Below are positions 275 through 64,000 of a stretch of 64,000 nucleotides of DNA, piece by piece. How positions within the stretch are numbered: position 1 is the first letter of the stretch; each line of letters starts with the position of its first letter. The position numbers and the translations under genes were made by a program. The notes under the pieces were generated by a model that was given only the letters and a program-made list of their open reading frames with translations, was not told where the DNA came from and did no database searches. The DNA is from Diphasiastrum complanatum (Eukaryota; Streptophyta; Lycopodiopsida; Lycopodiales; Lycopodiaceae), in the NCBI GenBank assembly GCA_029204225.1, contig CM055113.1, forward strand, positions 9,760,364 to 9,824,363, written 5' to 3'.

Positions 275-487
275 CTAAGGTAGGACGCGCGTGTTCGTGC
301 CCAGACGCGGGTGCGGGCGCCCGGGTGTGTTCGGGGGCAAATTTATTTTTTATTTTTTTGATTTTTTTACGTGCATTTTAGGTTAAAAAAAAAAGGGACG
401 CGCCGGACCCTGCGCCCGGTCGGACGCGGACGCGCCTGGGCGCGCAGGCACAAAAAATGGGAAAAACCCCCCGGACGCGCATCTCTG
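275..487. mobile_element. Short hAT-like MITE with GGACGCG word array
   Basis: A 213-bp GC-rich island in AT-rich DNA, bounded by a perfect 8-bp direct repeat CCTAGAAA at 267-274 and 488-495. The ends are C..AG-like (CTAAGGTAGG on the left, CAGAGATGCG on the opposite strand at the right), followed on both sides by repeated GGACGCG/CGCGTCC words around an A/T-rich centre. It has no coding capacity. The 8-bp duplication and small size fit a non-autonomous hAT element, and the word matches the partial element at the far right end of the window. The hAT assignment is inferred from the TSD length and from comparison with the other word-array elements here. Confidence 0.68.
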
Positions 488-495
488 CCTAGAAA

Positions 496-893
496 ATTTT
501 ATGCCTTTCAACCATCCATTTGATATTATCGAGTCTTTAGTTTATCTTTTTCACATGTCTTTGTTTATTCTATATAGCATTTTCCATCCAAGGCTAAAAT
601 GTTATGATGTGAAATGGTCTTAGGACCACACATCCTCCATCAGTGGAGTATGCCAAAGTAGAAACACAACTTCAAAATTAGTTGCATATGTGATTCATCA
701 TAGTTGGAGTATTGGAAGATCCAAGAAAAGTAGTTTGTGTTTGCATGTGGTTGGGGATTAGCAGTGGCTTGGCTTGAAAGAAAGCCATCATTTGGTTGTT
801 TGCAGGTTGAGAAGAGCATCATACTGTGGATCTGAGAAGAATAGAGAGAGGCACGGCAGGATCTGCACTTGTATGGGGTGCAATTTGGCTTGC
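496..893. other. Intergenic stretch, no gene recognised
   Basis: No coding region, RNA gene or repeat that I can name. The sequence is AT-rich and unremarkable. Confidence 0.5.
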
Positions 894-955
894 TGTTACA
901 ACTCCCTAGGATCAACGACTGCCTTGAAGGTTTCACACACCCCATACCAGTGACC
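894..955 (-). mobile_element. Gypsy LTR fragment
   Basis: This stretch begins TGTTACAACTCCCTA and stays closely similar to the outer 60 bp of the LTR at 9,559 and 20,988, then the similarity stops. It is a truncated copy of that LTR family. Its orientation is opposite to the decayed gypsy coding sequence that follows, so it may be an independent fragment. Confidence 0.7.
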
Positions 956-1039
956 ATGAATGTCAGCCATCTCCGCAGATAGCAAAAAATTTCTAGAGAT
1001 GTTGATTTAGCCCGATATTTTTCTTAGGGGATAAAATGA

Positions 1040-2830
1040 ACATGCATCTGGAAGTGGTGTTAGCGTGGTTGGATTGATAGACATTCCACTTTTTCATGCA
1101 CGGTTCTCCCCTCCCAACGACACCAAGGTCGCTATTGCCATTACGTTTTTATGTGGTTAGGCATATACTTGGTTGTAGGATCTCAAAGACAAGGTCAACA
1201 TACCAACCATTTGGGATGAGTCAAGAAGCCTTACAATCACCTTTTTTGCTGGTTTTGGAGCATTATTGTTAGACGGGTTCATTGCAAATGGGAACGAGGC
1301 CCTTGGATGTCTTTTAAAAGGTGGCACCTCCTTTTGCTAGTCGAATGGACCTGATTTTACTCAAATTGCACTATATCCTTGGTCTACCCAAAGACTACCA
1401 ACTTGAGGTTCATCGCAATTGGCCGCTCACTTTGGAGGATGCTGTGTTTGCTAGAATCTATGACAACACCCATGCCACAGCCCATAAAGAGTAGCAAGAC
1501 CCTAAGCAAGAGGCCAAAGACAAGAAACCTTCGACTCCTTTTCAAAAAAAGGGAAGGAAAAAGTCTTTAAATAATCCTATTGTAGCAGATTCTGCCAAGA
1601 GAAATTTAGAAATCTTAGGCAAGAATTTGTGGATTTCTTCCAGAGCAAGTACATGAGGGTCTACCTCCCTGCAAAGCTGTAGATCATCACTTAGAACTTC
1701 TTCCCAAAAGTTCCTTTGTATCGCTTTTTCCATGCACAATGAGCCCGAAGGAGGAAGATGAAGTTGCTAGCCAATTTCAGAATCATTTAACTAGTAGATA
1801 TTAGACCCAATAAATCCTCTTGGGTGGCACCTATACTTGGAGGCCTACACCTCTGTGTAGACTCTAGAAAGCTTAACAAAATGATAGTGAAAAATTGTAA
1901 TTCCTTACCTATGATGGATGATCTAATGTACCGTCTGAAGGTGCTAAATATTTCACCAAGATAGACATTAGATAAGGTTACCATCAGATATGGATGATGG
2001 ATGAGGACGTTCCAAAAACGGGCTTTCGGACTAGGTATGGCCAGCCACTATGAAGTTTTAGTTTTACCTTTTGGTCTCATGAATGCTTCGACAACTTTCT
2101 AGCAAATGATGAACGATCTTCTTCATCCATATTGTGGAAATTTTGCCATAGTTCTTTTTTATGACATATTGGTATACAATTGTACTTTGGAAGAGCATGA
2201 AGCACATCTTTGTACTATCTTAAAGATTCTAAGATAGGAAAAGCTCTATGCTACAAAGTGGAAATGTGAGTTTTTTTAAACAAAACTTAGGTACTTGGGC
2301 CATATAATATCTGATCGAGGTATTGAGATTGACTATGATAAGGTTCGTAAGGTACAGGAGTGGCCTATTTTGAAAACCATTCGAGAAGTAAAATCTTTTC
2401 TGGTCACAAGTTTTTTCCGTAGATTATTAAGGACTATGCCCTTAACAAATCTTCTTAAGTGAATCAAAAGGATTGCTAAGCGCAATTGTAAGAAATTTAG
2501 CCCACTAGTCCATTAAAACGATGATCTGAATGAAAGTTTTGAAACTTTGAAATACTATGTTTTTGTCGTGCCCATACTACACATAGTCGATTCAAACAAG
2601 ACGTTCTTTGTTGAGATGAATGCTAGTGATTATGCTGTAGGAGCCTTCTTTTATCAAGATGGTAGACTAGTAGCTTTTGAGAGCAAAAAGACCCTGCTCA
2701 AAGTAGATATTCTACTTATGAGAAGGAACTACTTGAGGTTATACATGCACGAAAGATTTGTTGCCATTATTTTGTATGGATCTAGATTCACTGTGATGAT
2801 AGATCATCGGTTCTATAGAGGTGCGTCCAA
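1040..2830 (+). pseudogene. Decayed Ty3/gypsy gag-pol remnant
   Basis: Translated pieces on the + strand resemble the gag and pol of the gypsy element at 9.6-21.5 kb. Around 1,330-1,560 there is a gag segment (LKLHYILGLPKDYQLEVHR, then a Lys-rich tail). Around 1,960-2,450 there is reverse transcriptase, including a degenerate YHQI block. At 2,547-2,830 there is RNase H-like sequence (HIVDSNKTFFVEMNASDYAVG, then an ESKK block). Stops and frameshifts are frequent, and the protease and the RT active site cannot be read. It is a dead copy, older than the flanking elements judging by its decay. Confidence 0.75.
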
Positions 2831-2989
2831 TGTTTCATCTAATCACAATTCATTGAACAAATTTCAACGAATCGCCAATTCAAAGTGGTTCGTTTCGAAT
2901 GGATCATTCGAATTGGATTTCTACGTTTGAATCGGCCCACTTGAACAAAAAAATCTATTTTCCAGCAACAATTTATAGCCACTGCCACT

Positions 2990-4320
<1,331 letters not shown>

Positions 4321-5990
4321 GTGAAGAAGGTAAACTCAGAAGGTCTAGGGGAGATGGAAATAGGAGTGTCAGTTTCAATGGTATATAAGGCAGTGGCATA
4401 ATCAGTTCAAATGCACAAATCATCAAGGAGCGGAGGTGGAGCACGGGGAATGAACTCACGCCAGAATGCGCCTGTGGAAGAAGTATAGAAAAGACCAATA
4501 AGTCGCTGCTCTTCCAAACTATCATATGCCCGTTTCTTACGACGAAGTAAGCGGGTAAAGAGACGACGTGTGGATTGCAAGAGATGAGGTGTGTGTATGC
4601 GAGCATGTGTGACAAGGTGATGGTGGGAACGACAATCATCGTCATACCATGGTGGGCGCACCGATCTAGGCTTGGTGTTTTTTTTGTGTTTGTTTTGATT
4701 TGGTTTATAAGGGAAGGAAGTAGTGGCAGCCGTATGGAGTGCTGTGGTAAGGAAGGAAGCTTGCGCTTCAAGCTATGATGTGGGAAAATATGGAGCAGCG
4801 GGGTAAGCGAATGCCGATAGGTAGGTGCGAGTGAGTAGTCAAAAAAGTATTTGGGTGCACGAGACAATGGTGGGGTGAGAACTGTTGAGGCAAAGAAATA
4901 GTACCAAGGCTAAAGAAAAGGAAGGAATGATTAGAGAGAGTGTTAGGAGAGATATGAAAATCATGGATGAGTGAGATGGATGATGGTGATCCCATAAGGT
5001 AATCAACAACACTATGACCGCCATTGTGGGGATGGCAGGTGTATTTGCCCGAGTCAGAAATCCTAGTAACACACAAGTCATCTCCATCAAGGGCACGTAC
5101 CCTACCCGAAGAAGAATTGAAGAGAAGGTCAACAAGCCGCTTTCCTTCCGAGTCATCATGGGCACGCTTTTTACGGCGGAGTATATGGTGGTAAGAGCAT
5201 CGGGCGGAGCGGAGAAGGTGGGGAGCATGAATACGTGCATGGGTGACAAGATGATGAAGAGAACTGCATTTGGCATCATACCATGGGGGACGGAGCAGTG
5301 AGGAATGTGTGCGCCTGCCTTTATGGGGCTTAGACGGAAAGGCTAGAGAAGCGGCAGTATGAAGAGAGTTGGTATGGAAGGCCGCTTGTGTCTCAACTGT
5401 ACTGTCATGGGGAGATAAGTGGAGTAAGAATGCCAAAGACTCCTGGTAGATTGGTGTATATAGAGTTGAATGTATATTTGGGTGCCCAGGTAAGCACAAG
5501 ATGGGAGGATGATTGGGAGGGGGGAGGCGGCTAATAGCGAAGGTGAGAAAAGAATGATCAAAGAGAGTGGTAGGAGAGGTATGAAAATCAGATATGAGAG
5601 GTATAGAGGATGGTGACCCCATGAGATAATCAACGACGCTTTGTCCGCCATTGTGAGGATAACAAGTATATGTGCCTGAATCTATCCAGCAAGATAGGCC
5701 ATTATAAATGGCTAACTCATGGGTCTCTCCAAATTGCAATAAATGCTCGCCATAGGGGTAATAGGTCCCAAGTTATCCTCTGGATCATGGTACCTCCCAT
5801 TACATCACTATCAATGGCACGAACGCGGAGCTGGTCGGTGGTATCATAGAACTCTGACTGTCGTGAGGAAGTTCGGGCAGGGACAGGCAGCTCGGGCAAA
5901 GGGCAGGAGCGGGACAGGAGGGAGATGGGCAGGTAGCGGGGGACAGAAGGAGGGTGCCATAGTTGTGTGAGAGAGGGCGCCATAGCTGCG
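4321..5990 (-). pseudogene. LINE ORF2 endonuclease-to-RT linker, partly duplicated
   Basis: Minus-strand segments encode the C-terminal part of an APE-type LINE endonuclease. A block with a YTCHPHNGG..VVDYLMGSPSS core ends in (D/N)HSFL, which matches the SDH motif position of APE endonucleases. A downstream linker contains PPWYD, HHLVTHARIH and LRRKKRA. Both the endonuclease block (about 5,740-5,560 and 5,080-4,900) and the linker (about 5,310-5,110 and 4,660-4,430) occur twice in order, so a unit of roughly 0.7 kb has been tandemly duplicated. Stops and frameshifts make it non-functional. The endonuclease N-terminus is missing. Confidence 0.8.
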
Positions 5991-6017
5991 TGAGAGGAGG
6001 GCGCTAGGCCACCATCG

Positions 6018-6019: not shown

Positions 6020-6095
<76 letters not shown>
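6020..6095. repeat. (GA)n microsatellite at a LINE 3' end
   Basis: A pure GA array immediately followed on the right by AAGCTTTATTAATGTC. On the minus strand this reads GACATTAATAAAGCTT then (TC)n, so the array sits where a LINE tail belongs, just after an AATAAA-like signal. Confidence 0.9.

Positions 6096-7422: not shown

Positions 7423-7499
<77 letters not shown>
7423..7499. repeat. (GA)n microsatellite at a LINE 3' end
   Basis: A GA array flanked on the right by the signature GAGAGCTTTATTAATGTC. The RT fragment on its left runs straight into it. Confidence 0.92.
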
Positions 7500-44614: not shown

Positions 44615-44815
44615 TAGGCACTCACGAGACAGTGAGAGAGCCAGTGAGAGGCTGTGAGAGGCATTGTGAGAAGCTGTGAGGGAGAGCCAGTGGGAGGCTG
44701 TGAGAGAGAGGCATTGTGAGAGGCTGTGTCACAGACTGAGTGAGAGGCTGTGAGAGGGGGGCTGTGAGAGAGCCAGTGAGAGCCATTGAGAGGTTGTGAG
44801 AGGCTGTGAGGATCA
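44615..44815. repeat. GAGAGGCTGT short-period repeats
   Basis: Irregular runs of GTGAGAGGCTGTGAGAGGCAT-like words. The inverted counterpart is at about 49,495-49,660. Confidence 0.8.
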
Positions 44816-44839
44816 TTTCGAGCAACAGGGTGTCGTGAG

Positions 44840-45163
44840 ATGGCGGAGGGCGAAGCCAGGAGGAAGCTCGAGGAAGAGGTCCGAAGGCACAACGAAAGGC
44901 ATCGGAAGCAAGAGGCAGACATTGCAGAGATGCTGCGAGAGACTCGGCAGAGACACCCAGAGCTGCAGATCCCCGCCCCCGCTGTGGCCCCCGCCCCCGC
45001 TGTCGAGCTGGATTTGGATGAGCAGATCGGAATGAACTTCACACGACGGCAGCTCATTATGGTCAGGGCTGACCAGGAGGCAGCTCGGGCTAACCGGGAG
45101 GCAGAGCGAGAGCGACATAACAATGCTCCTGACGAGGGCGAGGAGTCAGTGGAGGATCCATAG
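44840..45163 (+). CDS. Coiled-coil ORF in the left arm of hAT-1
   Basis: 107 codons starting MAEGEARRKLEEEVRRHNER. The protein is highly charged, with a coiled-coil-like N-terminus, a Pro/Ala linker (PAPAVAPAPAVELDLDEQIG) and a second Arg/Glu-rich helix (NREAERERHNN). A diverged inverted copy on the minus strand at 49,451-49,140 runs into the transposase region. The function is unknown. It may be a duplicated N-terminal exon of the element carried by the inverted repeat, since no partner coding sequence lies downstream on this strand. Confidence 0.5.
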   Translation: MAEGEARRKLEEEVRRHNERHRKQEADIAEMLRETRQRHPELQIPAPAVAPAPAVELDLDEQIGMNFTRRQLIMVRADQEAARANREAERERHNNAPDEGEESVEDP

Positions 45164-45666
45164 GAATGTTTAGCATAGATGGGGTCTAGTCGTATGTGGC
45201 TGACTGTTGTTATGTAATGTTCATCAGTAGATGAGGCAATATTTAGTGTCTAGCATGGTGTAAAGAACAGCCCCAGCCGTATGCGGCGGGAATACGTATT
45301 GTAATTTTGATACATCTGATGAATCAATGTACGGTGTGTTTTTTGTGCAATGCGTGCCTTGTGTATTGCAATCTGACGTATGTGATGATGAAATGCTATC
45401 AGGGGGGTTATATTTCTGTGTTCTGCATATGCTCTCAAACTCTGTAGTGAAAACTAATTGAAAACATGCACACACCATTTGAAGTAAAATTGCAAGTAGA
45501 ACATCACAATTACAAATTGACAAATACACATTGTGCAGTGAATAGAATACGTCCAACACTAAATATAATATGAAAAATGGTCTGAATACAGTGTTCGACC
45601 ATCTGGCCGCCAAACATGGAACATGATATCAAACTGCTAAAAATAAAATGATAGAGCTACAATCAA

Positions 45667-48600: not shown

Positions 48601-49451
48601 GTATGAACAATGTGAAGGAACTCGGCCTCTAGCAGTACACCCATCTGAATGCAGTTCGTGGCATTGTCCCTCACCACTGTGACGACATGCTGTGGTCCTA
48701 TGGATAGGATGGAAGACCTGATGACATCAAACATGAACTCTGCAGATATGACTCTCCCCCCCCCTGCTGCAATCCATTGCCCTCAAAAACTGTGTGCCCA
48801 TGCAGCTGGAGACCAATATGTTGAGGATCGGCCTCCTCCTGACATCAGTCCAGCCATCGGACATGATGCTGCAACCGTAAGTGGCCCAGTGGCGACGTAG
48901 AGGCTCCATCTCTCTAGACAATGACTCGACCCTATCCCTTAGCATGTGTGTGCGGACAACCTCTGAACTAGGGACTCTCCAGCTAGGGCTGACAGACTGT
49001 GCAAGGCGGAAGGCCCTTCTGAAGGGCTCGGAGTCGGTGATGGCAAATGGAAGGTTCAGCTCATAAATCAGGCTGGCCACGGCCTGTGTGGCCTCTCTAT
49101 CCATGTGCGGCTGATGCGCGCCGCGAATGCTCTGCTGCCTAAGAACTCTCCCGCATTGTTCTGTCGCTCTCGCTCTGCCTCCCGGTTTGCCCGATCTGCC
49201 TCTTGGTTAGCCCGACGGCGGGCTGCCCTTTCCTTGACCACGATGAGTTGTCGTCGTGTGAAGTTCATTCCAATCTGCTCATCCAAATCCAGCTCGACAG
49301 CGGGGGCGTGGGGCACAGCGGGGGCGGGTTGCTCCGGCTCCGGATTTCTCTGTGGAGCCTGTCGCAGCATCTCTGCAATGTCTGCCTCTTGCTTCCGAGG
49401 CCTTTTGTGCCTTCGAACATCTTCCTCGAGCTTCCTCCTGACTTCGCCCAC
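45667..49451 (-). pseudogene. hAT transposase gene (DUF659-type), about four exons
   Basis: On the minus strand the core exon (about 49,135-48,121) contains QQSIRGAHQPHMDREATQAV and LPFAITDSEPFRRAF. It then has YGCSIMSDGWTDVRRRPILN, the DUF659 block with the catalytic Asp, followed by VVRDNATNCIQMG and HTPCAAHDIDLL and a middle domain (RGDQFWRDAQTL). GT-AG introns fit at 48,120-48,007, 47,660-47,579 and 47,409-47,308. Exon 3 holds the hAT dimerisation block SVCERNWSTWALIH. The last exon has a long acidic, then Pro/Ala-rich tail. No BED finger is present. Instead an out-of-frame coiled-coil piece (49,451-49,150) precedes the core. Frame breaks occur at that junction, near 48,540, and in a GA-rich Arg-Glu codon tract near 47,170-47,215. 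Confidence 0.83.
49150..49451 (-). pseudogene. Coiled-coil ORF copy in the right arm of hAT-1
   Basis: The minus strand starts MGEVRRKLEEDVRRHKRPRK, then ELDLDEQIGMNFTRRQLIVV. It is homologous to the ORF at 44,840-45,163. It continues into the transposase core sequence, but the core is in the +1 frame relative to it. Confidence 0.6.
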
Positions 49452-50167
49452 AGGCCTCGGTGGTATGCACTCCGCTATCTCACGACACCCTGTTTCTCAA
49501 ATTGGCTCTCATAGCCTCTCACAGCCTCTCAATGGCTCTCACTGGCTCTCTCACAGCCTCTCTCCCACAGCCTCTCACTGGGTCTGTGACACAGCCTCTC
49601 ACAATGCCTCTCTCTCACAGCCTCTCACTGGCTCTCTCACAGCCTCGTGAGTGCCTATTTAACCCCACAGCCTGTTTCCCCATATGCAGTTGTTGATGAT
49701 CCCTCCATGTGCCCTTGTACCTGCCCCCATTTGTTGCTCGCTCACGTGCTGCACTCCCATTGGCCCCATGGCCTGCTCTCCCATAGTGCCCATGTGCTAC
49801 TATACCTGCCCCATGTATTGCTCCCCCACATGCTACGCACTCCAATTGGGTCCGTGATCTGCTCCCCCACAATGCCCATGTGTCGGTGTACCTGTCCGGA
49901 TTTGTTGCTCCCCCACATGCTGCACTCCCATTGACCCCAAGGTCTGCTCTCCCACAGTGCGTACAATCCCCCCTTTTTTCTAAACCCTAACCCTTTTTTT
50001 TCCTGAATTTTGTTACCCTAAATTACCATAGTAAAAGGGGTTTTTATTAGAAAATAAAAAATAAAAAATATTATTTTTATGGTGTCGCCCTGGTACCTCG
50101 GGTCTGAGGGCGGCACCATAATGGCGGTACCCCCATTATGGTACCGGCGGTACCATGGGATTCTATG

Positions 50168-50193: not shown

Positions 50194-50553
50194 CATAGAT
50201 CCAGCGGTACTAGGATCCGCGGATCCCGGTACCGCGGATCCAGTGTGGTACCGCGGATCCATACTGATCCGCGGTACCACAATATATAATATTTTTTATT
50301 ATTTAATATATTAGTATTTTCTTTTTTAACCTAATCCCCCCCCTCGCTTCATCTCTCTCCCTGCCCGTCGCCCTACTGTCCGCGCCCTCCCTGCTGTCCG
50401 CGCCCTCTCTGTTGTATGCCCATCGCCCTACTGTCCGCGCCCTCCCGACTGTTTTCGGCCTTTATTGTCCTTTATTGTGGTGTTTTCAAGCCTTCCGACT
50501 CCTATCGCACCCACAGAGATCTCTGCCTTCTTTCCCCAGTCCTTTCTACAGAG

Positions 50554-51419
50554 ATGGTGCATTCCAACCTTGTCGATTTGTGGGACGAGGTGGACATTGT
50601 CAGGCGGGTTCTCGACAAGTCTAACAAGTCCGGTGCAAGGCTAGTACGCTGTCGATATTGTCTGACCGAGTTCGTTGCCACTCTCACTCGCCTTAAAGGC
50701 CACCTACTCGGCGCACGCGCGAGAGATGGTGGCACACTGAATTCTGCCCCCTGTGCTAGCATGTCCGTTCTCGTTAGGCAGCGACTTTTGGATACCTACG
50801 GGCCACGTCTTGTGCGGGGGAGAACACCATTTCGGAGGGTGTTCTTCGGTTTTGCACCTCTCCTTACGTGGTTGACCCCAAGTTGCTGCCTGCTTGGCTG
50901 GCACGCACGAGGAGAGGGAGTGCATCCTCGTCCAGTCCCTTTGCCCCTCATCCCTCTTAGACAGTTCCGCCTCACGCACCCCCATCTGCACCCATTCTGG
51001 TGGATCCTGTCCCACCTCGTCCGCCAGTTGCCACTGTGGTTCCACCACCACCTACTGTTGCTCGCACTCCCCCAATTTACGACTTTCTCATGGACTCTCC
51101 GCCTCCCGAGCAGGAGCAGGCCCCGGATGCCAGTGACGAGGCCTTCCAGGATGTTGAGGAGATCCCTTCCTCCCTCCCTTCACATCTGGATGACCTCCCT
51201 ACCCAGCAGTTTTCGTATCCCATGCAAGATGTCCACCCTCCACCAGTGTACCCCACTTACGCTGCTGCACCCATCCCGGCCAGTGCATCCCACTCTCCCC
51301 ATTCCACGTCTACAGCTGATGCATCCACTAGTGCCCAGCCTGTCGCATCATCATCCATTCCCGTCACGTTTGGTGCACCGTGCTGGAGGTCCGCTACCCG
51401 TCGCCGGCATAAGATGTAG
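50554..51419 (+). pseudogene. hAT-2 BED zinc-finger and Pro-rich N-terminal exon
   Basis: ATG at 50,554: MVHSNLVDLWDEVDIVRRVL, then RCRYCLTEFVATLTRLKGHL. This is a BED-type CxxC finger with the LKGHL helix typical of plant hAT transposases. After a frame change (about 50,800) a Pro/Ser-rich linker follows (PPRPPVATVVPPPPTVA) to the stop at 51,417. The core that should follow is absent on this strand. Confidence 0.72.
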
Positions 51420-51844
51420 CAGCATTTAGTGTTTAACACAGTGTAAAGAACAGCCCCAGCCGTATGTGGCAGGATACGTATTGTTATATTGATACCACTG
51501 TTGAATTAATGTTCAATGGGTTTTTTGTGCAACGCGTGCCTGGGAAATTGCAATGTAATATGTGTGTTTATAAAATGCTATCAAGGGGGTTGTATTTCTT
51601 TGTAGTGTATCTGCTATCAATCTCTGCAGTTGAAACTAATTGAAAATACACACATACCATTCAAAATAAAATTGAAAACAGAGCATCACAATTACAAATC
51701 GACAAATACAAAATGTGCAACAAATAAAGTACGTCCAACACTGAATATAATATGGAAAATGGTCTGAATACAGTGTTCGACCATCTGGCCACCAAACATA
51801 GAACATGATATCAAACTGCTAAAAATAAAATAACAGAGCTACAA
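51420..51844 (-). other. 3' flank of the minus-strand hAT-2 transposase copy
   Basis: Closely similar to 45,230-45,665 of hAT-1 (shared AAAGAACAGCCCCAGCCGTA). No coding sequence. Confidence 0.75.
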
Positions 51845-52732
51845 TCAATGCTCTGGCTCTGACTCAGACGAATGCTCCGGAGACAACTCAAGGCCTCGAG
51901 CTAACTCTCGCAACTGATATCTATGCTTGTCTAGATCTGGCATGGGCTGTGTATCTGAGGAGGAAGACTCGTCGTCCACATCCTCCCAATCTGCCTCCGC
52001 ATCAGCCCCCAAGCAAGCCAAACCAACAACACCTGCTCCAGCTGGCTGTAATACTGCACCTCTACCTGTAACTGGAGCCCTGCGAGGTCGTCCTCTCTTC
52101 CCTGGCTGTTTCTGTGCTCTGCCTTTTTTGTTCGGTGCACTCTTGGGCCTTCCTGGCCTCTTGCGGACGAGGGGAGCCGTCAATGCCTCATCACCCCCAT
52201 GCAAATCACCTGGCTGGCTAGGCTGGGCCCAAGCTGAGGCCGGCTGGGATAGAGAAGCCAAAGACGGGTGTCCCTGTGCAGCTGATAGTGGAGGATAGGT
52301 CCGTGGAGTGTGTGCCTGTGGGGCTGCTGCTGGTGGAGGAACTGGCTGTGGAGGGGCCGTCCCTATAGGAGGCAAGTACAGCGGCAATATGTACTGAAAG
52401 GGGCGCTGCAGTGGCCGGTACTGGTACATCCTGGGTGCTGCCAAAGGAGGAGTCGGTGGAGTGGGTGCTGCCAAGGGATGAGGATGTGCCGTGGGTGCTG
52501 CCACTGGAGGAGCCACTGTGGATGTGGGTGCTGCAAGAGAAAACCTGGGCAGAGATGGTGGCCTGCCACGGAGACCTGGTGCTGCAGAAGTGGATGGCGA
52601 TGGAGGGGCTTCAGGTCTCAATGGCATCGGTGGCACTGGAGGTGCTGTGCGGCGCACATACACCCTCTGAGGAACTGGAGGAATTGCATGCACCTCGTGT
52701 AGCTGCTCTGGCTGAGACTCTGTGTAGGGCAT
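51845..52732 (-). pseudogene. hAT-2 transposase C-terminal Pro-rich tail
   Basis: A minus-strand ORF of 295 residues with VPQRVYVRRTAPPVPPMPLR, repeats of PLAAPT-like units, a basic stretch KKGRAQKQPGKRGRPRRAP (AT-hook-like GRP core) and an acidic end (DDESSSSDTQPMPD). It is homologous to the last exon of hAT-1 and is better preserved here. Upstream it is cut by the copia insertion and resumes at 59,681. Confidence 0.72.
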
Positions 52733-52734
52733 GC

Positions 52735-53765
52735 TGTTATGGTTTAAGTTTGATCAATTTCACCATGTATTTTAGTGCCACGCAATTTTAATTTGTGTTG
52801 TATTCTCTCAAAGTTTAAGTAGGCCTATAAGTGGTACATGGTCATACCTAGGTCCAAAGTTTTAAGGCCCAAATAAACTTAGGCAAATTTTTTTAGTACA
52901 AACTTGTGGAGGGCCTTCTTGTATGATGATGCCACTTGTCCACTGGAGTTTGGTAGACCCCCATGCATATGTGCATGGGGGAGAAAAAGTTAGTTTGCCA
53001 CATATCCTAGTTTGCATGTGACATGCAAGATGCATGCATGACAAACTAGACACATGCAATTAGACATGCAAATTGCCACCTACCTTGGACACTTGGCAAT
53101 AGCATGTAATGCATTGTACATACATCAATTCTTATTAATAGAACCTCCACGATTTGGAGGAGTGTGATTTTGGGATAATCTTCTATTCTTCATCACTTTG
53201 TTGTCTCTTCCATCTCAGATTGTGTAGTAGCTCGCAGTAGGATCTGATCTGATCATTTACTTGTTTCTCCTTCTCCTCTCATCAGATTTCGATGAGAACA
53301 GTTGCATACTGATTCTTGGAGGAGGGCGCTACTAGTCAGATCATTCCCACTTCGAATTCAGAGCAGATCAGAGCCAAGACAACAATCAACCATTTCTGGG
53401 AGGGCGCTGGTTCTGTTTTGTTCAATCATACATTTCTCTTTCATGTATTGTCAGATTTAGGTGAAATCAAAGGCATAAGTCATCTATTGCATAGGCTCTA
53501 TTAGCAGAAGCAATTACAAGTCAATCTGGTTTTGATTTTTTCAAATTTAACGTCAACTATAGTGGCCAGCAAGTAGACATATTCCTGTCCTTGATTCATC
53601 TGAAAGGCATAGAGAAGAATTCACACAGATTGAACTAAGATCAAATTTATGAACCACAGCTTGCTGATTTTGATCCATTTTGAGTTGTAGAAGACCATCG
53701 AGGATTCCTAGATTGGTAAACCTCGATTTTACGACCCTTTTCTATCTGTATTGTTTCCTCTATTA
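52735..53765 (+). repeat. LTR1 of copia F
   Basis: 1,031 bp, followed by PBS TGGTATCAGAGC at 53,767. The TATA position reads CTTATTAATAG, a change from TATAAATAG in the other two LTRs. Confidence 0.93.
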
Positions 53766-53779
53766 GTGGTATCAGAGCT

Positions 53780-54812
53780 ATGGCTTCTACTTCTACTTTT
53801 CAGGCAAGGACAACGATCCTAGATGGATCCTGCATGGAGATCAAAGACTCGACTGATTCTGCAAGCTAAGAAGCTGTGGCCTTATGTTGATGGGATCATT
53901 CCCAAACCGCATGTACCTGATGTAATAAATACAGCAACTTATGAAGAAGATTTAAAAGATCTTCACGCCTGGTTGCATGCAGATTCTAAAGCTAAAGTAA
54001 TTATTTCCCAAACCGTTTCAGAAGATATCTTTCTCACTATTGCCGATTCTGCTACAGCAAAGGAGATGTGGGTTGAACTTGCTCGAAGATTTGAGTCAAA
54101 ATCACAAACTCAAATCTTATATCTGTTTGAGCAACTTACTAGTTTAAAGTGGGATGGAATTTCAGATTGTGATACTTTTCTTTTCAAGTTACAATCTTTG
54201 TTTAGTGCTCTACAAAGTGCAGGTAGAATAACTCCCAAGGAGGAGAAACTTACGTACCTGTTGCGAGCACTACCACCCTCCTACATCTACATGCGACCTG
54301 TTCTTACAGGTAAATCATTTGAAGAGGCCATTCAAAGCCTTCGAGAGGAGTATCTCATGCGTCAACGAAGTTCACCTTCTCAAGGAGGAGCCAAAGCTTT
54401 ATATGCGAAGAAAGGAAAGGGCAAGGCAAAAGGATGCGGAAACCAGTTTCAAGCTACTAGCATGCAAGATCCAAACAATAAAGATTCCAAAGTGGAATCA
54501 TCTGAGCCGAAGTCAAAGAAATCTTTTTGCAATTATTGTAAAAAGCTAGGACATACTCTTGATAAATGTTGGGCTAATCCCAGAGTAGCTTGTAGACATT
54601 GTGGCAAAACTGGTCATTCATCTTTCAAATGCTATTCTAGGCCTAACAATAGTAAAGCCATTGTTTGTCAAGAGGAACAACTTTCTTCTAACTCAAGCAA
54701 AGAGGAAAACACTCTAGCTACTGCTTTTGTTCGTGTAGAAGATTGTTTTAATTCTACTGATAATACTTCCGAAGTTGTGATAGATTCTGGAGCTACTGCT
54801 CATCATCTCTAA
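53780..54812 (+). pseudogene. Copia F gag and protease start
   Basis: The expected start ATGGCTTCTACTTC at 53,780 is out of frame with the main ORF (53,823-54,812), so a small indel lies between. The gag contains RLILQAKKLWPYVDGI and AKEMWVELARRFESKS (UBN2 type). Two zinc knuckles follow, CNYCKKLGHTLDKC and CRHCGKTGHSSFKC (both CX2CX4HX4C). The protease begins EVVIDSGATAHHL and stops. Confidence 0.9.
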
Positions 54813-56551
54813 TAGAGCTATGTTGTCTAGTTATTCTCCTAGTTACACTCAGAGACATGTCATTTTAGGAGATGGTAGTCAACATGATGTTTCATGAATA
54901 GGAAGCTTGAATTTACTCACAATTGAAGGTTCTAAAGTTCTTCGAAATGTATTGCATGTACCAACCATGCAAAAGGACTTGTTGTCAGTAGCCCGCATGA
55001 CAGATGTGGGCATCAAAGTTCTGTTTCTTGATAATAATTGCAGGCTAATGGACACAAAAAGTGGAAAGTAGCTTGCAACAGGCTTACGGAGGGAGAACCT
55101 GTATCATGCAAAAGTTCTTATTGCATGTGACGAAGTTTCAGCCGTTGAAGACAAGATGCATGCATTATGGCATGCTAGGCTTTATCACATGAGCATGCGA
55201 AGCATTCTTAATGCAGCAAAGAAAGACTTGTTTGAAGGGGTTGATTTTGACATCAATACTCCCACTTCATATCATCCATGTGACTTTGCATGCTGGGCAA
55301 GATGACTCGCTCTCCATTCAATAAGGAGGGCCATAGATCTAAGGAACTTCTTGAATTAGTTCACTCGGATGTTTGTGGACCTTTGCTTGTTAACTCTATT
55401 GGAAGTGCACGTTATTTTGTCCCATTCATTGACGATTTTAGTCGATTAGCAATGATCTATTTTATTGCTAATAAAAGTGACGTTCTTTTGAAATTTAAAG
55501 AATTTCTCAGTTTTGTGCACTCTAAGACTTCAAAGAGATTCAGACAACTACGTTCAGATCGTGGTGGTGAATATATTTCTATAGAATTTCAAGAGTTTTG
55601 TACCAGCAATAACATTCTACATCAGTTTACGGCTGTGTACACCCCTCGACACAATGGTGTTGCAGAACGGCGGAATCGAACTCTTGTTGAGGAAGCACGC
55701 TGCATGATGATTCGTGCAAAATTACCTGCGAAATTTTGGGCGGAAGCAGTCAATACTGCCAATTACTTGCAGAGTCGTACTTTACAATCTCTAGATAAGG
55801 AGAAAACTCCTTATGAATGTTGGACCGGGAAAAAGCCCAAGTTAACACATGTTAGAATTTTTGGATGTCTAGCATATTTATTTGTCCCTAAAGTTAAAGG
55901 CAATAAGCTAGACAATACTGCTATGCCAGGAGGTGATATTGCCTATGCAGTTCATACTCTTAGTCAGTTTGCCACTAATCCTGGTGTTATTCATTGGAAG
56001 CATGCTAAATATGTTTTACAATATTTGAAAGCTAGTTCTGATTATGGACTTGTTTTCTCTAAACAAGATGGTCTATCACTTGCTTCATACAGTGATGCCA
56101 GTTGGGCTTCTAATGTGGATGATTATAAAAGCATTACAGGAGGATGTAGTATACTTTCAGGGGCAGCCATCACATGGATTTGCAAGAAGCAATCTTTTGT
56201 TGCTCAATCCTCTTGCGAAGCGGAATATATCGCAGCCTCAAGAGTTTCTCTAATGAAGTAGTTTGGCTGCGATTCATGCTTGAACATCTACATCAACTTG
56301 ATGAAGACCCAAGTTCTTTATTTATTGACAACACTTCTGTACCTTCAAAAGATGCCGTATTTCATGGGAGGACCAAACATATTCGTATCAAGTATCATCA
56401 TTTGAGAGATCTAGTCAAGAAGAAGATTATCTCCCCTATCTTCATTGACTCAAGTAACATGGTTGCAGATATTCTTACAAAACCACTCTATGCAAACTTA
56501 TTTCATCGCCATAGGAAGAAGCTTGGAGTATGCAAAATTGACCAAACTTAG
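54813..56551 (+). pseudogene. Copia F protease end, integrase, RNase H; RT deleted
   Basis: After stops at 54,810-55,070 the GAG-pre-integrase region (ALWHARLYHMSMRSIL) precedes the integrase: LVHSDVCGPLLV (Asp), QLRSDRGGEYISIEF (Asp), HNGVAERRNRTLVEEAR (Glu), RIFGCLAYLF. At about 55,925 KGNKLDNTAMPGGDIAYAVH jumps from the integrase C-terminus to late RT/RNase H, deleting the RT palm. RNase H shows LASYSDASWASN (catalytic Asp) and AQSSCEAEYIA (Glu), then a frameshift near 56,235. Confidence 0.92.
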
Positions 56552-56559
56552 GAGGGAGC

Positions 56560-57530
56560 TATTATGGTTTAAGTTTGATCAATTTCACCATGTATTTTAG
56601 TGCCACGCAATTTTAATTTGTGTTGTATTCTCTCAAAGTTTAAGTAGGCCTATAAGTGGTACATGGTCATACCTAGGTCCAAAGTTTTAAGGCCCAAATA
56701 AACTTAGGCAAATTTTTTTAGTACAAACTTGTGGAGGGCCTTCTTGTATGATGATGCCACTTGTCCACTGGAGTTTGGTAGACCCCCATGCATATGTGCA
56801 TGGGGGAGAAAAAGTTAGTTTGCCACATATCCTAGTTTGCATGTGACATGCAAGATGCATGCATGACAAACTAGACACATGCAATTAGACATGCAAATTG
56901 CCACCTACCTTGGACACTTAGCAATAGCATGTAATGCATTGTACATACATCAATTCTTATAAATAGAACCTCCACGATTTGGAGGAGCGTGATTTCGGGA
57001 TAATCTTCCATTCTTCATCACTTTGTTGTCTCTTCCATCTCAGATTGTGTAGTAGCTCGCAGTAGGATCTGATCTGATCATTTACTTGTTTCTCCTTCTC
57101 CTCTCATCAGATTTCGATGAGAACAGTTGCATACTGATTCTTGGAGGAGGGCGCTACTAGTCAGATCATTCCCACTTCGAATTCAGAGCAGATCAAAGCC
57201 AAGACAACAATCAACCATTTATGGGAGGGCGCTGGTTCTGTTTTGTTCAATCATACATTTCTCTTTCATGTATTGTCAGATTTAGGTGAAATCAAAGGCA
57301 TAAGTCATCTATTGCTTAGGCTCTATTTGCAGAAGCAATTACAAGTCAATCTGGTTTTGATTTTTTCAGATTTAACGTCAACTATAGTGACCAGCAAGTA
57401 GACATATTCCTGTCCTTGATTCATCTGAAAGGCATAGAGAAGAATTCACACAGATTGAACTAAGATCAAATTTATGAACCACAGCTTGCTGATTTTGATC
57501 CATTTTGAGTTGTAGAAGACCATCGAGGAT
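56560..57530 (+). repeat. LTR2 of copia F, 3'-truncated
   Basis: 971 bp matching LTR1 and LTR3 up to CCATCGAGGAT. The last ~60 bp are missing and mid-RT sequence follows directly. Preceded by polypurine tract TTAGGAGGGAGC. Confidence 0.92.
56958..56966 (+). promoter_or_regulatory. TATA box in LTR2
   Basis: TATAAATAG in the LTR, also at 59,048-59,056 in LTR3. Likely the retroelement core promoter. LTR1 has lost it. Confidence 0.65.
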
Positions 57531-58651
57531 GCAAAAGGTTATCCTCAAAAGTTTGGAGTTTTTTGATACGTTTTCTCCCGTTGTAAAGCAAGCTAGCATA
57601 CCATTCATTCCTGATGGTAGTGTTTATTCCAAAAGGGTGAATGAGTATTATGTATTGTTGACAGTCTATGTTGATGATTCATTGTTGATAGGATTTCTAC
57701 TCGTTTCATCAATCATTGTAAGAAGTTAATTGGCTCTATCTTTGATGTTTCGGACCTTGGAGAGGCAAAATTTTTGCCTTGGAATTCAAATTCATCATGA
57801 CAGGATAAAAGGCACCATTGCACTTCATCAACAACATTATATTTTGAAGATCCTAAATGACTACAATATGCTGGAGTGCAAAGGCAAAGACATTCCTATG
57901 CTACCTGGAGTTAAATTATCCAAGGAAGATGGAGCGAAGACTGAAGAGGAACATGAAGAAATGTCCAAGATTCCTTATCACAATTTGATTGGATCTTTAA
58001 TGTATCTCACTACTTGGACACGGCCTGATATTGCCTATGCAGTTCATACTCTTAGTCAGTCTGCCACTAATCCTGGTGTTATTCATTGGAAGCATGCTAA
58101 ATATGTTTTACAATATTTGAAAGCTACTTCTGATTATGGACTTGTTTTCTCTAAACAAGATGGTCTATCACTTGCTTCATACAGTGATGCCAGTTGGGCT
58201 TCTAATGTGGATGATTATAAAAGCATTACAGGAGGATGTAGTATACTTTCAGGGGCAGCCATCACATGGATTTGCAAGAAGCAATCTTTTGTTGCTCAAT
58301 CCTCTTTGCGAAGCGGAATATATCGCAGCCTCAAGAGTTTCTCTAATGAAGTAGTTTGGCTGCGATTCATGCTTGAACATCTACATCAACTTGATGACGA
58401 CCCAAGTTCTTTATTTATTGACAACACTTATGTACTTTCAAAAGATGCCGTATTTCATGGGAGGACCAAACATATTCGTATCAAGTATCATCATTTGAGA
58501 GATCTAGTCAAGAAGAAGATTATCTCCCCTATCTTCATTGACTCAAGTAACATGGTTGCAGATTTCTTACAAAACCACTCCATGCAAACTTATTCCATCG
58601 CCATGGGAAGAAGCTTGGAGTATGCAAAATTGACCAAACTTAGGAGGGAGC
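57531..58651 (+). pseudogene. Copia F second unit: partial RT and RNase H
   Basis: Begins mid-RT (FFDTFSPVVKQASI), then LTVYVDDSLLIG, the catalytic YVDD box, after a gap. It continues with FCLGIQIHHDR, HNLIGSLMYLTTWTRPDIAY and RNase H (LASYSDASWASNVDDYKS). A frameshift removes the Glu segment at AQSS, at the same point where the first unit decays. The end VADFLQNHSMQ is shifted relative to VADILTKPLYA in the first unit. Confidence 0.9.
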
Positions 58652-59680
58652 TATTATGGTTTAAGTTTGATCAATTTCACCATGTATTTTAGTGCCACAC
58701 AATTTTAATTTGCGTTGTATTCTCAAAGTTTAAGTAGGCCTATAAGTGGTACATGGTCATACTTGGGTCCAAAGTTTTAAGGCCCAAATAAACTTAGTCA
58801 AATTTTTTTAGAACGAACTCGTGGAGGGCCTTCTTGTATGATGATGTCACTTGTCCACTGGAGTTTGGTAGACCCCCATGCATATATGCATGGGGGAGAA
58901 AAAGTTAGTTTGCCAAATATCCTAGTTTGCATGTGACATGCAAGATGCATGCATGACAAACTAGACACATGCAATTAGACATGCAAATTGCCACCTACCT
59001 TGGACACTTGGCAATAGCATGTAATGCATTGTACATACATCAATTCTTATAAATAGAACCTCCACGATTTGGAGGAGTGTGATTTCGGGATAATTTTCCA
59101 TTCTTCATCACTTTGTTGTCTCTTCCATCTCAGATTGGGTAGTAGCTCGCAGTAGGATCTGATCTGATCATTTACTTGTTTCTCCTTCTCCTCTCATCAG
59201 ATTTCGATGAGAACAGTTGCATACCGATTCTTGGAAGAGGGCGCTACTAGTCAGATCATTCCAACTTCGAATTCAGAGCAGATCAGAGCCAAGACAACAA
59301 TCAACCATTTCTGGGAGGGCGCTGGTTCTGTTTTGTTCAATCATACATTTCTCTTTCATGTATTGTCAGATTTAGGTGAAATCAAAGGCATAAGTCATCT
59401 ATTGCATAGGCTCTTATAGCAGAAGCAATTACAAGTCAATCTAGTTTTGATTTTTTCAGATGTAACGTCAACTATAGTGGCCAGCAAGTAGACATATTCC
59501 TGTCCTTGATTCATCTGAAAGGCATAAAGAAGAATTCACACAGATTGAACTAAGATCAAATTTATGAACCACAGCTTGCTGATTTTGATCCATTTTGAGT
59601 TGTAGAAGACCATCGAGGATTCCTAGATTGGTAAACCTCGATTTTACGATCCTTTTCTATCTGTATTGTTTCCTCGAACA
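58652..59680 (+). repeat. LTR3 of copia F
   Basis: 1,029 bp, the outer 3' LTR, ending TCGAACA before TSD CATGC. TATAAATAG at 59,048. It matches LTR1 closely. Confidence 0.93.
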
Positions 59681-62354
59681 CATGCTGGCTAGATAGGATG
59701 GGGGCGCCCTGACACTCGGCATCTACTGGGCCTCTGAATCCAACTTTGCAATCAAGTCGTCCAGCTGGGCATCCGAATACAAATGCTCTGGTCTCTGGGA
59801 CTCATCATGTGCACCATCCTCTGGATCATCTTCTACCTTATGCCGTGCCTCATCCTGTGCAACATGCGGACCCTGCATGGCTTCCCAATCGGTACAATCA
59901 AAGTCATCTGGTGACTCCTCTGGTGTGCTGTCGTAGAAATGTCTATGGCTCTGTGATGCACGCATCCAAGCAGCTGCGGAAGGTAAACCCAAATCAATCT
60001 GCCCCCTATCAAGAGCCTCCATCATATCAACATAAGAAGGTATGCCACTGGCCCCCCCTGTGTGCCCTGCCCATCTCCTGGTATAATCTATGGCATGTGA
60101 CCCACTTCTACCATGTGATGCACCTGTTACGCCTGCTCTAGGCGTGTACCCAACACCTGTATCATATGCCTCATCCCACTCTGATCTGGCGAAGACAACC
60201 CAAATGGGCTCATCCTCATCTTGATCATCCTATGACATTGGCTCATCTGCCTCGTACAATGGAGGGGCTCTCTGTGCTCAAGCCCAAGCTCTCTCTCTCT
60301 CTCTCTGCCATCAGCTGTGTGCCCAAATCATCTGCAAGCATGGGATGGGTGCTGTCCGTAGGCAAGTCAACCTGGCGCTTCAAATCTGATATCTTCGTCT
60401 GCAAGGTTTAAAATTTGCATGTCAGAGAGACAACTTGATCAAGAAATGAAACCAACGTACCAGTCGTCAACCAACATGCTATGGGAGAATAGCTAATCAC
60501 CTGCAATGCGCTCGTAATGGTCGGAAGTCTCCTGGTGAGACATGCGTTGGTGCTACGGAACACCAACCGCTCCAACTGACTCACTGACAGCCTGTTTCTT
60601 CTCCTCGTGTGAATGAGTGCCAATGTGCTCCAATTACGCTCACACACGGAGGCAACGCAGTCCTGTGGTACGTGCAATGAAATGCTTCAGCACATGTCCA
60701 CGGGTGGAACGTCAACGAAACACAGCAATGGAGGATGAAATGAGATGCATACCTGAAAAAGGACACGCAGTGCAAGACGTTGTATAGATGGATAGGTGCT
60801 ACCGAACATGGTCCACCAGGTAATGGGAAGCTGCCTCCTCTCTGGATCCTGAGCAACCGGGTGGCCAAATGTGCCCATGCCAAAACGAAATGCAGCGAGC
60901 TCCTCCCTGAGCTTGATAGGATCCAAACCTATGTGTGGACCCACCCTGTGAATGTACTGAAGCCAATCGGCCTCGAGCTCCCTGTCTGCGATCTGTATTA
61001 GAGAGAGGAAGAGGGGATGAGTATGTGTGCAACGCTGTGGATACTCCTGTGGAAGTAGTTCCACCGCGTCTCCCAGATGAACTTCAGCTCGGTCATCCTG
61101 CAGGTGAGAGGCATGTTAAAACTTGGGCATTACGAAAAAACTTAACATTGGCAGAAAAACAAACTAGCACCCACTGAAAAGATAAAGACCAATTACATTA
61201 CTATATCGCTTACCTCTCTGGCTGCAAGATGGGCAGCTGCAGGAACTGTCCAATCCGGTCCATGAGCTCATATACCAGTCCAAGTGTCGACCCCTCGCTG
61301 TCAGCCATGCGGAGCACAATGTAGAGTGGTCGAAGCAGTCCTGACAATGTCTGTGCATCCCTCCAGAACTGGTCTCCCCTCACCGTGGAAGAAAAGTGCT
61401 CCCCATCCTCAGTGTGCTAAAACGTACTGGCACGCCAAAGATCACTGGCAACCATTTGTAGAAGCTGCGCCCTACACCTGATCAAACGGTCGATGACCAC
61501 CAAGTCGAATGCAAAGCATGTGGGGGCTGGCTTACGGAGGTCCAGATGGCTGGACACCCGGAACATGGCAAGAACACGCCTCTTCTTGGTGGGCCTCACA
61601 GACGATGGCTCTAACCCAGGGAAGTGCACCTATGTCCCCCATCAGAAGGTCTATGCCGTGCGCTGCACAGGGGGTATGAACAATGTGAGGGAACTCGACC
61701 TCTAGCAGTGAATGCAGTTTGTGGCATTGTCCGTCACCACTATGACGACATGCTGTGGGCCTATGGACAGGATGGAAGACCTGATGACATCAAACATGAA
61801 CTTTGCAGATATGACTCTCCCCCCCTGCTGCAATCCACGGCCCTCAAAAACTGTGTGCCCATCCAGCTGGAGACCAAGATGTTGAGGATCGGCCTCCTCC
61901 TGACATCTGTCCAGCCATCGGACATGATGCTGCAACCGTAAGTGGCCCAGTGGCGACGTAGAGGCTCCATCTCTCTAGACAAGGACTCGACCCTATCCCT
62001 CAGCATGTGTGTACGGACAAACTCTGAACTAGGGACTCTCTAGCTAGGGCTGACAGACTGTGCAAGGCGGAAGGCCCTTCTGAAGGGCTCAGAGTCGGTG
62101 ATGGCAAATGGAAGGTTCAGCTCATAAATCAGACTGGCCACGGCCTCTGTGGCCTCTCTGTCCATGTGCGGCTGATGCGCGCCACGAATGCTCTGCTGCC
62201 TAAAAACTCTCCCAGCGGGGTGAGGGTAGCGGACCTCCAGCACGGTGCACCAAATGTGACGGGAATGGATGATGACGCGACAGGCTGGGCACTAGTGGAT
62301 GCATCGGCTGTAGACGTGGAATGGGGAGAGTGGGATGCACTAGCAGGGATGGGT
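59681..62354 (-). pseudogene. hAT-2 minus-strand transposase copy
   Basis: Homologous to 46,578-49,135 of hAT-1. On the minus strand it has a Pro/Ser-rich linker (62,354-62,218), the FRQQSIRGAHQPHMDREATE junction in frame with it, and LPFAITDSEPFRRAF. It then has YGCSIMSDGWTDVRRRPILN, a middle domain with small deletions (near 61,590 and 61,700), VGPHIGLDPIKLREELAAFR, SVCERNWSTLALIHTRRR (dimerisation block) and the acidic DFDCTDWEAMQGPHVAQDEA tail. It preserves the original fusion of linker and core that hAT-1 has lost. Confidence 0.8.
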
Positions 62355-62475
62355 AATGTAATCGCTCTTTATCTCTTTCAGTGATTGCTAGTTTGTTTGT
62401 TGTTGATGTTACATTTTTCCGTATTTTGCTTCGATCTCATTGTACTTTCTTCAACCCCCAGTATAATGTGCAGGG

Positions 62476-62955
62476 TGACCGAGCTCAGGGGTATCTGGGA
62501 GACGCGGTGGAACTACTTTCACAGGAGTATCCACAGCGTTGCACACATTTTGCATCCCCTCTTCCTCTCTCCGACACAGATTGCAGATAGGGAGCTCGAG
62601 GTGGATTGGCTTTTCTACATCTACAAGGTGGGCCCACGCATTGGTTTGGATCCTATCAGACTCATGGAGGAGCTAGTTGCATTTCGTTTGGCATGGGCAC
62701 GTTTGTTCACGAGGCTGCGCAGGATCCAAAAGAGGAGCCAACTCCCCATTACGTGGTGGACCATGTTCGGTAGCACCTGTCCCTCCATACAGCGTTTTGC
62801 ACAATGTGTCCTTTCACATGTATGCATCTCATCTCATCCTCCCTTAGTGCATTTCCTTGACATTCCAGCTGTGCACATGTGCTAAACTATGTCATTGCAT
62901 GTACTACAAGATTGCGCTGCCTCCGTTTGTGAGCATAATTGGAGTACATTTCTGA
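62476..62955 (+). pseudogene. hAT transposase exon 2-3 fragment on the + strand
   Basis: After the acceptor TGTGCAG it encodes VTELRGIWETRWNYFHRSIH, then VGPRIGLDPIRLMEEL and LPITWWTMFGSTCPSIQRF. After an intron-like gap, ATTGCGCTGCCTCCGTTTGTG (from 62,911) encodes the AASVCE-NWST dimerisation block. It is orthologous to 48,006-47,560 but inverted relative to the neighbouring minus-strand copy. The upstream 62,356-62,475 corresponds to the intron at 48,007-48,120. Confidence 0.75.
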
Positions 62956-63034
62956 TCTTTAAAATGGGAGGGTTAGGAACTCCATTAATAATGCAAAAAG
63001 CAACCGGCTCATAAAATGCAATGCATGTTTAAAC

Positions 63035-63672
63035 CATAGTTGCACAGAATCGCGTTTTTGAGAGGAGACGTGTCGGAAACCGCGTTTCTAAGAAACGCGT
63101 TTCTCCTCCCAGAATCGCAAAAAAAAAAAAACAATTTTTTTTTTGTTTTGGAAAAATAGCTTATGGCTAAAATTTTTTTAGGGGATCAATGTTCAAACGA
63201 GCGTTTTGCCTCTCAGAAGTGCAGTAGATGGGACACAAACAGACCTTATTTTCAATAGCTATTTGGTTGTTATTTGCTCTGGTTTTCAATAAATGCTCAG
63301 GGGGTTCGGGGGGCGGTAGCCCCTCGGTGGGGGGTCTGGGTGGCAACTCCCTCCAACGGGCCTCTTCATGACTTGGCCATCCAACTCCCTGAGCGAAAAC
63401 ACACTTACTGGGGCCATCTGTGATCGTAACAGACAGGCTAGAGGTTAGTTTTGAATTTTTATCCTTGACAGAACATGGATTAATGCACCTAAACTGGACC
63501 ATCCTGCACCCGAAACAGTCGGTAAATTACATAGTAATTATGCTCTTGATTAGAGCTTTCACCTAATACCCATATTGCACAAAAAAAAACAAAAAAAAAA
63601 AAATTAAAAAAAACGTTTTTGAAAAAAAATTCCATATTTCCGAAACGCATTTCTGAACGCGTTTCAGAAACG
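63035..63672. mobile_element. hAT-like element with AAACGCGTTT words, right end lost
   Basis: The left end CATAGTTGCACAG matches the TIR of the MITE at 41,966, followed by AACCGCGTTTCTAAGAAACG words. The interior (about 63,290-63,430) is an inverted copy of the interior of 19,540-19,700 (GGGGGTTCGGGGGGCGGTAG, CCCTGAGCGAAAACACACTT). CCCATATTGCAC at about 63,570 corresponds to the inner inverted block of that element. The right words GAAACGCATTTC and GAACGCGTTTC end at about 63,660, and no CTATG terminus is seen. Confidence 0.7.
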
Positions 63673-64000
63673 TAGTTAAGAAAGCGGACGGTGGACGCGA
63701 ACGCGCGTCCGCGTCCGCGTCCCCGGACGCATCCATTTTTTTTAAATTTTAAAAAAATAAAAATTAGACTAAAAAAAAATTTAAAAAATAAAAATTGAAG
63801 CCAAGGGTGCGTACGGCGGTACGGACACGTCCGTTTTTTATTTTTTTTAAATTTTTTTTAAATTTTTTAAATTTTTTTTAAATTTTTTTTATTTCTTTTT
63901 AGGGTTTTTTAGGTTAAAAATTTAAAAAAAATAATAATTGGACGCGTCCAACCCCGCGTCCGGGGGTCGTCCGTGTCCGGGTCCGGATGCCAGACGCAGA
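63673..64000. mobile_element. Partial GGACGC word-array element at window end
   Basis: From about TTAAGAAAGCGGACGG there are dense GGACGCG/CGCGTCC words, a long A/T block and more GGACGCGTCC words to the window edge. Its word type equals that of the MITE at 275-487. It appears inserted into the right end of the preceding element, and its own right end is outside. Confidence 0.6.

Follow-up and report, generated by a model that had tools for sequence, protein, structure and literature searches.

The stretch of Diphasiastrum complanatum DNA considered here (contig CM055113.1 of assembly GCA_029204225.1, positions 9,760,364 to 9,824,363 of the forward strand), referred to below as the window at its full length of 64,000 nucleotides, carries four short elements (E1 to E4) and two large ones (hAT-1 and hAT-2) that resemble hAT transposons and whose ends hold arrays of short words. 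A preliminary description had taken the short elements for a single lineage that kept its ends while its words were switched as a set. From the window and from searches that covered the 1.745-Gb assembly (5176 contigs), we find that the elements belong to a number of hAT-like families, three or more of which are repeated in this genome (those of E2 and E3 and the class with the word AAACGCG). In the family marked by the word GGTACC, two old end sets, each composed of a left end, a BED exon, a right end and a partner gene, surround a young shared core.

Elements of the window

E1 (275 to 487), a short hAT-like miniature inverted-repeat transposable element (MITE), has GGACGCG words, the tips CTAAG..CTCTG and the target-site duplication (TSD) CCTAGAAA; a second GGACGCG array, at 63686 to 64000, continues past the window edge. 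E2 (19300 to 20129, + strand; TSD GTTTGAAC) is a MITE in which an A end with GGATCC (about 19300-19392) and a B end with GGTGCC (about 20012-20129), both of the GGTACC family, enclose a core (about 19452-19962) related to elements of the AAACGCG family. E3 (38164 to 38350; TSD GTTTTGGG) is a MITE with GGTGCC words, and E4 (41966 to 42097; TSD CTCCCAAC) is a MITE with AAACGCG words and the perfect 11-bp inverted tips CATAGTTGCAC. The last of these tips recurs in el5 (63035 to 63676, + strand), a further member of the AAACGCG class whose right tip lies outside the window and which matches a complete 637-bp copy (L027) at 80%.

The perfect 8-bp TSDs ascribed to the small elements are exact in all four cases, and random placements in the window share an 8-mer at most 15 bp from both edges 1.7-3.3% of the time. 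Pairs of CATAG..CTATG with an exact 8-bp repeat occur twice in the window, whereas 300 shuffles gave 0.017 such pairs on average and never more than one. The claim of common ends could not be upheld: CATAG is found at both ends of E2 and E4 only, while E3 has CAAGT..CTTTG (seven genome copies that were fetched have CAAAG tips or nearly so), and the differing tips of E1 and E3 contradict a single lineage with one pair of ends for all four elements. The + strand of the window contains 75 CATAG sites, seven of them with at least three words within 150 bases; five of the seven resemble true tips (19300, 41966, 44008, 50194 and 63035), and the two others (50027 and 63530) are internal to an element.

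Of the supposed palindromic words, GGTACC/GGATCC, GGTGCC and AAACGCG are strongly enriched, but GGACGCG forms no palindrome. The idea that each element uses a single word fails for the GGTACC class, whose two ends carry different word sets. Eight stretches from GGTACC, GGTGCC and AAACGCG ends fold better than their shuffles (z -3.0 to -8.8), the end at 63035 folds more weakly (z -2.3), and the two ends of E1 fold no better than shuffles (z -1.2 and -0.07).

E3 represents a genuine MITE family, with 39 further scored genome copies at 70-80% identity and exact 8-bp repeats around six of the seven fetched. For E1 and E3 alike, the window and the genome search with DUF659 yielded no transposase-bearing partner.

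The transposase-bearing element reported at 44008 to 50167, hAT-1 (- strand), is present and has a DUF659 body, but the repeat that flanks it has one mismatch and falls within an AT repeat, where it proves little. The body (45229-49152, - strand) comprises DUF659 (open reading frame, ORF, 48727-49206), a dimerisation-like region and a tail with GRP repeats (45666-46004), which resemble AT-hooks and have no Pfam match; its reading frame is disrupted by stops and frameshifts. Beside the B end lies the convergent partner gene 'MAEGE' (44840-45163, + strand), encoding 107 amino acids (aa) that are rich in R and E and include no cysteine. On the opposite side, a second, inverted B arm (49153-50167; 12.8% mismatches to 44008-45126, and many gaps) takes the place of the BED exon and the A end, whereby the element has B ends on both sides, in inverted arms of about 1.1 kb. 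Tandem repeats of 84-85 bp, perhaps promoter or binding repeats, are found within the B arms (44233-44571 and 49705-49960).

The A arm of hAT-2 (50194-51399, + strand) brings an A end and a BED exon to the side where complete copies carry the B arm, and includes a frame for a BED-like CCHC finger (50554-50826, + strand) without a significant Pfam match. The transposase body that follows (51412-62213, - strand) is interrupted at about 52733-59675 by an insertion like a long terminal repeat (LTR) retrotransposon, presumably of the Copia type by its motifs, and next to the body there is a BED-exon remnant (62224-62354, - strand) that is 96% identical to 51269-51399 and rearranged beyond. An inverted piece of the dimerisation region, 20% diverged, is fused to this remnant at 62354-62950. 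The bodies of hAT-1 and hAT-2 are alike at 87% and 91%, and their arms exhibit no similarity at E 1e-3.

The GGTACC family across the genome

The DUF659 region of hAT-1 has 150 scored matches in the genome (of 9257 first-look candidates), each at least 91% identical. Nine loci were opened, eight of these matches and L049, and seven of the nine hold a complete element from A end to B end with an exact flanking repeat, three of these repeats lying in an (AT)n run, where they prove little; no complete A..B element was found at L057 and L061. The element at L049 measures 4718 bp, with both arms and an exact 8-bp repeat. In the complete copies the A end is next to the transposase's BED exon and the B end next to a small convergent second gene, and the two ends are unlike, with different word sets. 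Because complete copies thus have an A arm and a B arm at opposite ends, hAT-1 and hAT-2 are best read as a B-B and an A-A derivative that came about through inverted duplication of one arm, and not as typical copies.

The second, or partner, gene is matched on the B side at seven of the nine opened loci (no match at L057 and L064), and its frame is open over 121 aa at four of the nine, over 78 aa at one more and not whole at the other four. Its products (107-121 aa; window copy and L060-L063) have no Pfam match. Within one of the two end sets described below (g2), the nonsynonymous divergence (dN) of the gene is 0.041 and the synonymous divergence (dS) 0.211, an excess of dS over dN as would be expected of a gene in use.

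Several characteristics bear on the assignment of these elements to the hAT transposons. Duplications of 8 bp flank the window MITEs (four of four), E3 copies (six of seven), AAACGCG places (8 of 18, including one within an AT repeat) and opened GGTACC loci (four of nine outside AT repeats and three more inside), and subterminal repeats are present near short terminal repeats. DUF659 (Pfam PF04937) is recognised at E 2.3e-17 in the hAT-1 ORF and at 1.5e-17 in another search; the dimerisation region (PF05699), at E 0.02, falls short of the cut-off and is conserved between copies. The BED-like CCHC pattern is kept in most copies of both the GGTACC and the AAACGCG families. A single-sequence fold of the BED frame is poor (mean predicted local distance difference test score 58.9), and its comparison with solved structures gave only three weak matches (urease, proteasome activator) at E 0.02 or worse. 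Catalytic residues were seen by eye only, in broken frames. A protein search with the DUF659 piece returned nothing at E 0.001, viral contigs yielded 24 matches to a 15-base pattern, with two short weak similarities around them and no relative, and Rfam gave no match at gathering score. GGTACC elements and AAACGCG elements form two hAT families of the DUF659 type that are related to each other.

Two end sets around one core

Complete copies of the GGTACC family come with either of two sets of ends. In g1 the A end has several GGATCC words and the B end has CCATTATGG and GGTGCC, and in g2 the ends are mostly GGTACC. The sets were defined on the first nine loci, and ten further loci, used as a test, had a BED type equal to the A-end type in every case. 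Altogether the type of the A (left) end matches that of the BED exon in 19 of 19 typed copies, hAT-2 included, L062 being untypable. B ends could be called at five of the ten further loci, all of them concordant (one by just 6 bits), and not at the other five; read from its own tip, the B end is concordant in seven of seven complete copies.

The depth of separation between g1 and g2 depends on the part of the element that is compared. Between the sets, dS amounts to 0.764 for the BED exon (0.108 and 0.147 within sets) and 0.335 for the partner gene (0.023, from one pair, and 0.211 within sets). The corresponding value for the dimerisation region is 0.097 (0.105 and 0.089 within sets); in this region, the divergence of the core between g1 and g2 is no greater than within either set. 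Counts of synonymous changes in one between-set pair, 26/61 in BED vs 11/145 in DUF659 plus the dimerisation region, differ at p 1.4e-8, and the same contrast has p 3.4e-7 and 7e-8 in two more between-set pairs and p 1 and 0.44 in two within-set controls. In blocks of 300 bases, the divergence of L059 (g1) from L060 (g2) is 0.41 at the A end and then 0.20, 0.13, 0.11 and 0.07, reaches 0.02-0.06 at 1501-3300, and returns through 0.08-0.15 at 3301-4800 to 0.17-0.39 beyond. The branch that separates g1 from g2 in trees has a length of about 0.29 for the head and about 0.26 for the B side, compared with 0.008 for the core.

A 21-bp palindrome in the B end has 99.4% of its cells paired, with three pairs altered on both sides and two-sided changes in 10 cells, vs 4.1 in shuffles. 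The palindrome appears to have been maintained despite changes of its letters, the count of two-sided pairs alone being not unusual.

The AAACGCG family and the E2 chimera

The AAACGCG pattern has 18 matches in the genome (control, 0), and the 8 with TSDs also have, in the stretches examined, a partner tip. The elements at three of these places (L035, L038 and L051) are large and match both the BED-like finger and DUF659. The BED-like fingers of the GGTACC and AAACGCG families are 33% identical, those of AAACGCG copies are 80-96% identical to the finger of L035, and the transposases of the two families agree at 56-63% over 40-43 residues of DUF659 and at 29-32% in the part before it. The expectation that every word class would be paired with an autonomous hAT and a BED finger of its own finds support in two of the four classes, GGTACC and AAACGCG, which have large elements with BED-like fingers of their own; for the classes of E1 and E3 no such partner was found in the window or by the DUF659 search.

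E2 is short, has many similar copies and shares its ends with a transposase-bearing element, as a MITE does. Another 40 matches in the genome span at least about 620 bases, at 82-92%, and some of these, on small contigs, may repeat chromosome copies. Since 28 of the 40 start at base 1 or 2 and extend as far as base 767 or further, the arrangement has been propagated as a whole. The 12 copies fetched all have CATAG tips, GGTACC words and the core motif, and none has the AACGCG/CGCGTT word; their flanking repeats are exact in eight and have one mismatch in four, in AT repeats. One end of E2 is A-like and the other B-like, as in complete GGTACC elements, and its core matches elements of the AAACGCG family; it therefore joins ends from one family to an interior akin to that of a second. 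Chance similarity was rejected for the interior that E2 shares with el5 (score 55, compared with maxima of 18 in 200 shuffles and 22 among 283 other window pieces).

Copies that lie inside (AT)n repeats make up 18 of the 23 counted in the GGTACC family and one of nine in the AAACGCG family (p 0.0009), a count that includes E2 copies chosen by similarity and hence a non-random sample; without E2-type MITEs the figures are 6 of 10 and one of nine (p 0.057). The GGTACC-family copies concerned are L058, L062, L063, L069/L070, L083/L084, L092-L103 and the element at 44008-50167. Long AG/TC runs in the window (2992-3142, 6020-6095, 7423-7499, 26280-26335 and 27331-27405) are in several cases near frames that we take, by eye and from their motifs, to be reverse-transcriptase-like.

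Origin of the end sets

Our reading, which we consider probable, is that there are several hAT families and that old sets of A end, B end, BED exon and partner gene have been inherited together around a core that was exchanged. The suggestion that words switch as a set thereby finds support within the GGTACC family, in the agreement of A end with BED exon, in that of the B end and in the young core, and through E2 it extends, as a suggestion, to two families. By analogy with Hermes, the palindromic words would be putative sites at which a multimeric transposase binds through its BED fingers; since the ends and the finger must presumably match in function, they would be inherited as one set. 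The catalytic core might then pass between sets when related elements recombine or undergo gene conversion, and non-autonomous elements such as E2 might acquire the ends of another family likewise. Each set may specify its own mobilisation. We regard it as possible, but tentatively, that both palindrome arrays, the BED exon and the partner gene form one heritable cassette, that movement of the core between such cassettes created mutually independent mobilisation systems, and that MITEs change their allegiance among them.

A number of observations weigh against the exchange of a core between inherited sets. The concordance of the B end rests on seven complete copies (two g1 and five g2; p 0.048), and an automatic score placed L058 and L063 in the other B class, from stretches that reach past the element. 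Since the BED exon is found no further than about 400 bp from the A end, the concordance of the two could be mere linkage. The dS of DUF659 between g1 and g2 is intermediate, 0.224, and slightly above the within-set values of 0.093 and 0.198. The divergence of L059 from L060 declines stepwise, without one sharp breakpoint, and the tree of the core still splits g1 from g2 (support 85/92), so that one or a few transfers of the core would suffice, as opposed to free exchange. For the B-end palindrome, the three pairs with two-sided change compare with 2.4 in shuffles (261 of 500 shuffles reach three), and its eight distinct rows are close relatives. Finally, the left end of E2 is nearer to g2 (97 vs 84 bits), though its right end is g1.

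It could also be that nothing was switched, and that each word class is a separate hAT family with subterminal repeats of its own. Such ordinary diversity would agree with the different tips of E1 and E3, with the divergence between the transposases and BED fingers of the GGTACC and AAACGCG families, and with the element-specific subterminal repeats described for Hermes and Kat1 in the available excerpts of PMC10368747 and PMC4763223; it leaves unexplained a young core shared within two old end sets, as well as a family such as E2 that combines GGTACC ends with an AAACGCG-related interior. As a general account we hold it to be doubtful: the contrast at synonymous sites contradicts it for the GGTACC family, and it stands for E1 and E3.

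The E2-type chimeras in particular might go back to the insertion of an AAACGCG-type element into a GGTACC MITE, with loss of the ends of the inserted element. The interior of E2 does have inverted arms of its own (19378-19520 and 19892-20035), but the absence of the AACGCG/CGCGTT word from the fetched copies, the lack of an inner target repeat in E2 and the multiplication of its layout as a unit make such nesting unlikely; an insertion that preceded the multiplication and lost its tips would still fit.

Fast divergence of the ends and the BED exon under conflict with the host or with rivals, around a conserved core and without recombination, has a precedent in the joint change of motif and protein reported for VANDAL/VANC in the excerpted text of PMC5735166. 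We consider it very improbable here, as the contrast is one of synonymous sites and the BED dN between sets (0.130) is well under the dS of 0.764. Within sets, moreover, the dS of BED is near that of DUF659 and only somewhat above that of the g2 dimerisation region (0.089), values which suggest that mutation rates are equal across the element. The similar bodies and dissimilar arms of hAT-1 and hAT-2 might lead one to think of an exchange of heads between two families, but this is refuted by the complete copies at L049, L058-L060, L062 and L063, which hold both arms.

Comparison with known systems

The plant hATs Ac/Ds and Tam3 have subterminal repeats at both ends, non-autonomous derivatives and one transposase gene, and they differ in this last respect from the elements described here, which have a second gene beside that of the DUF659 transposase. 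Hermes likewise has a single transposase gene and makes an 8-bp TSD; the VANDALs of Arabidopsis are Mutator-like elements. Pairs of Hermes BED domains bind quasi-palindromic subterminal repeats, and the left and right ends of Hermes are unlike, according to the available excerpts of PMC10368747. The elements described here resemble Hermes in their BED-like finger, their subterminal repeats and their unlike ends, but the ends of Hermes are AT-rich (PMC10368747) and the palindromes here GC-rich, and the portions of that paper at hand make no mention of end sets that are paired and enclose a common core. Kat1 of Kluyveromyces lactis is likewise a hAT-type enzyme with a BED finger and with subterminal hexamer repeats that are thought to aid cleavage, as described in the excerpts of PMC4763223, but it is a domesticated transposase that works at one locus. 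In the VANDAL/VANC system, as far as the excerpts of PMC5735166 describe it, a sequence-specific protein and its short, multiply arrayed target motif change together between families, as might the fingers and words here; VANC, however, is an anti-silencing factor, and its motifs change by turnover of tandem repeats and not by exchange of a core. Among the titles and abstracts of open-licence papers, within the covered part of long lists, none dealt with hATs whose end sets are paired and whose core is shared.

Implications

It is a puzzle how a transposon could change both of its ends and the domain that binds them without losing its activity, since a change in one alone should disable the element. 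The matter is directly testable in this genome, which has a great number of candidate copies, some with long open frames, and a young core within two old end sets, and which supplies natural pairs of finger and ends, both matched and mismatched. For work on plant genomes, the sets could also serve as transposon systems independent of each other. For the hAT transposons themselves, matched sets of ends and fingers around a shared core suggest one route by which new recognition specificities might arise.

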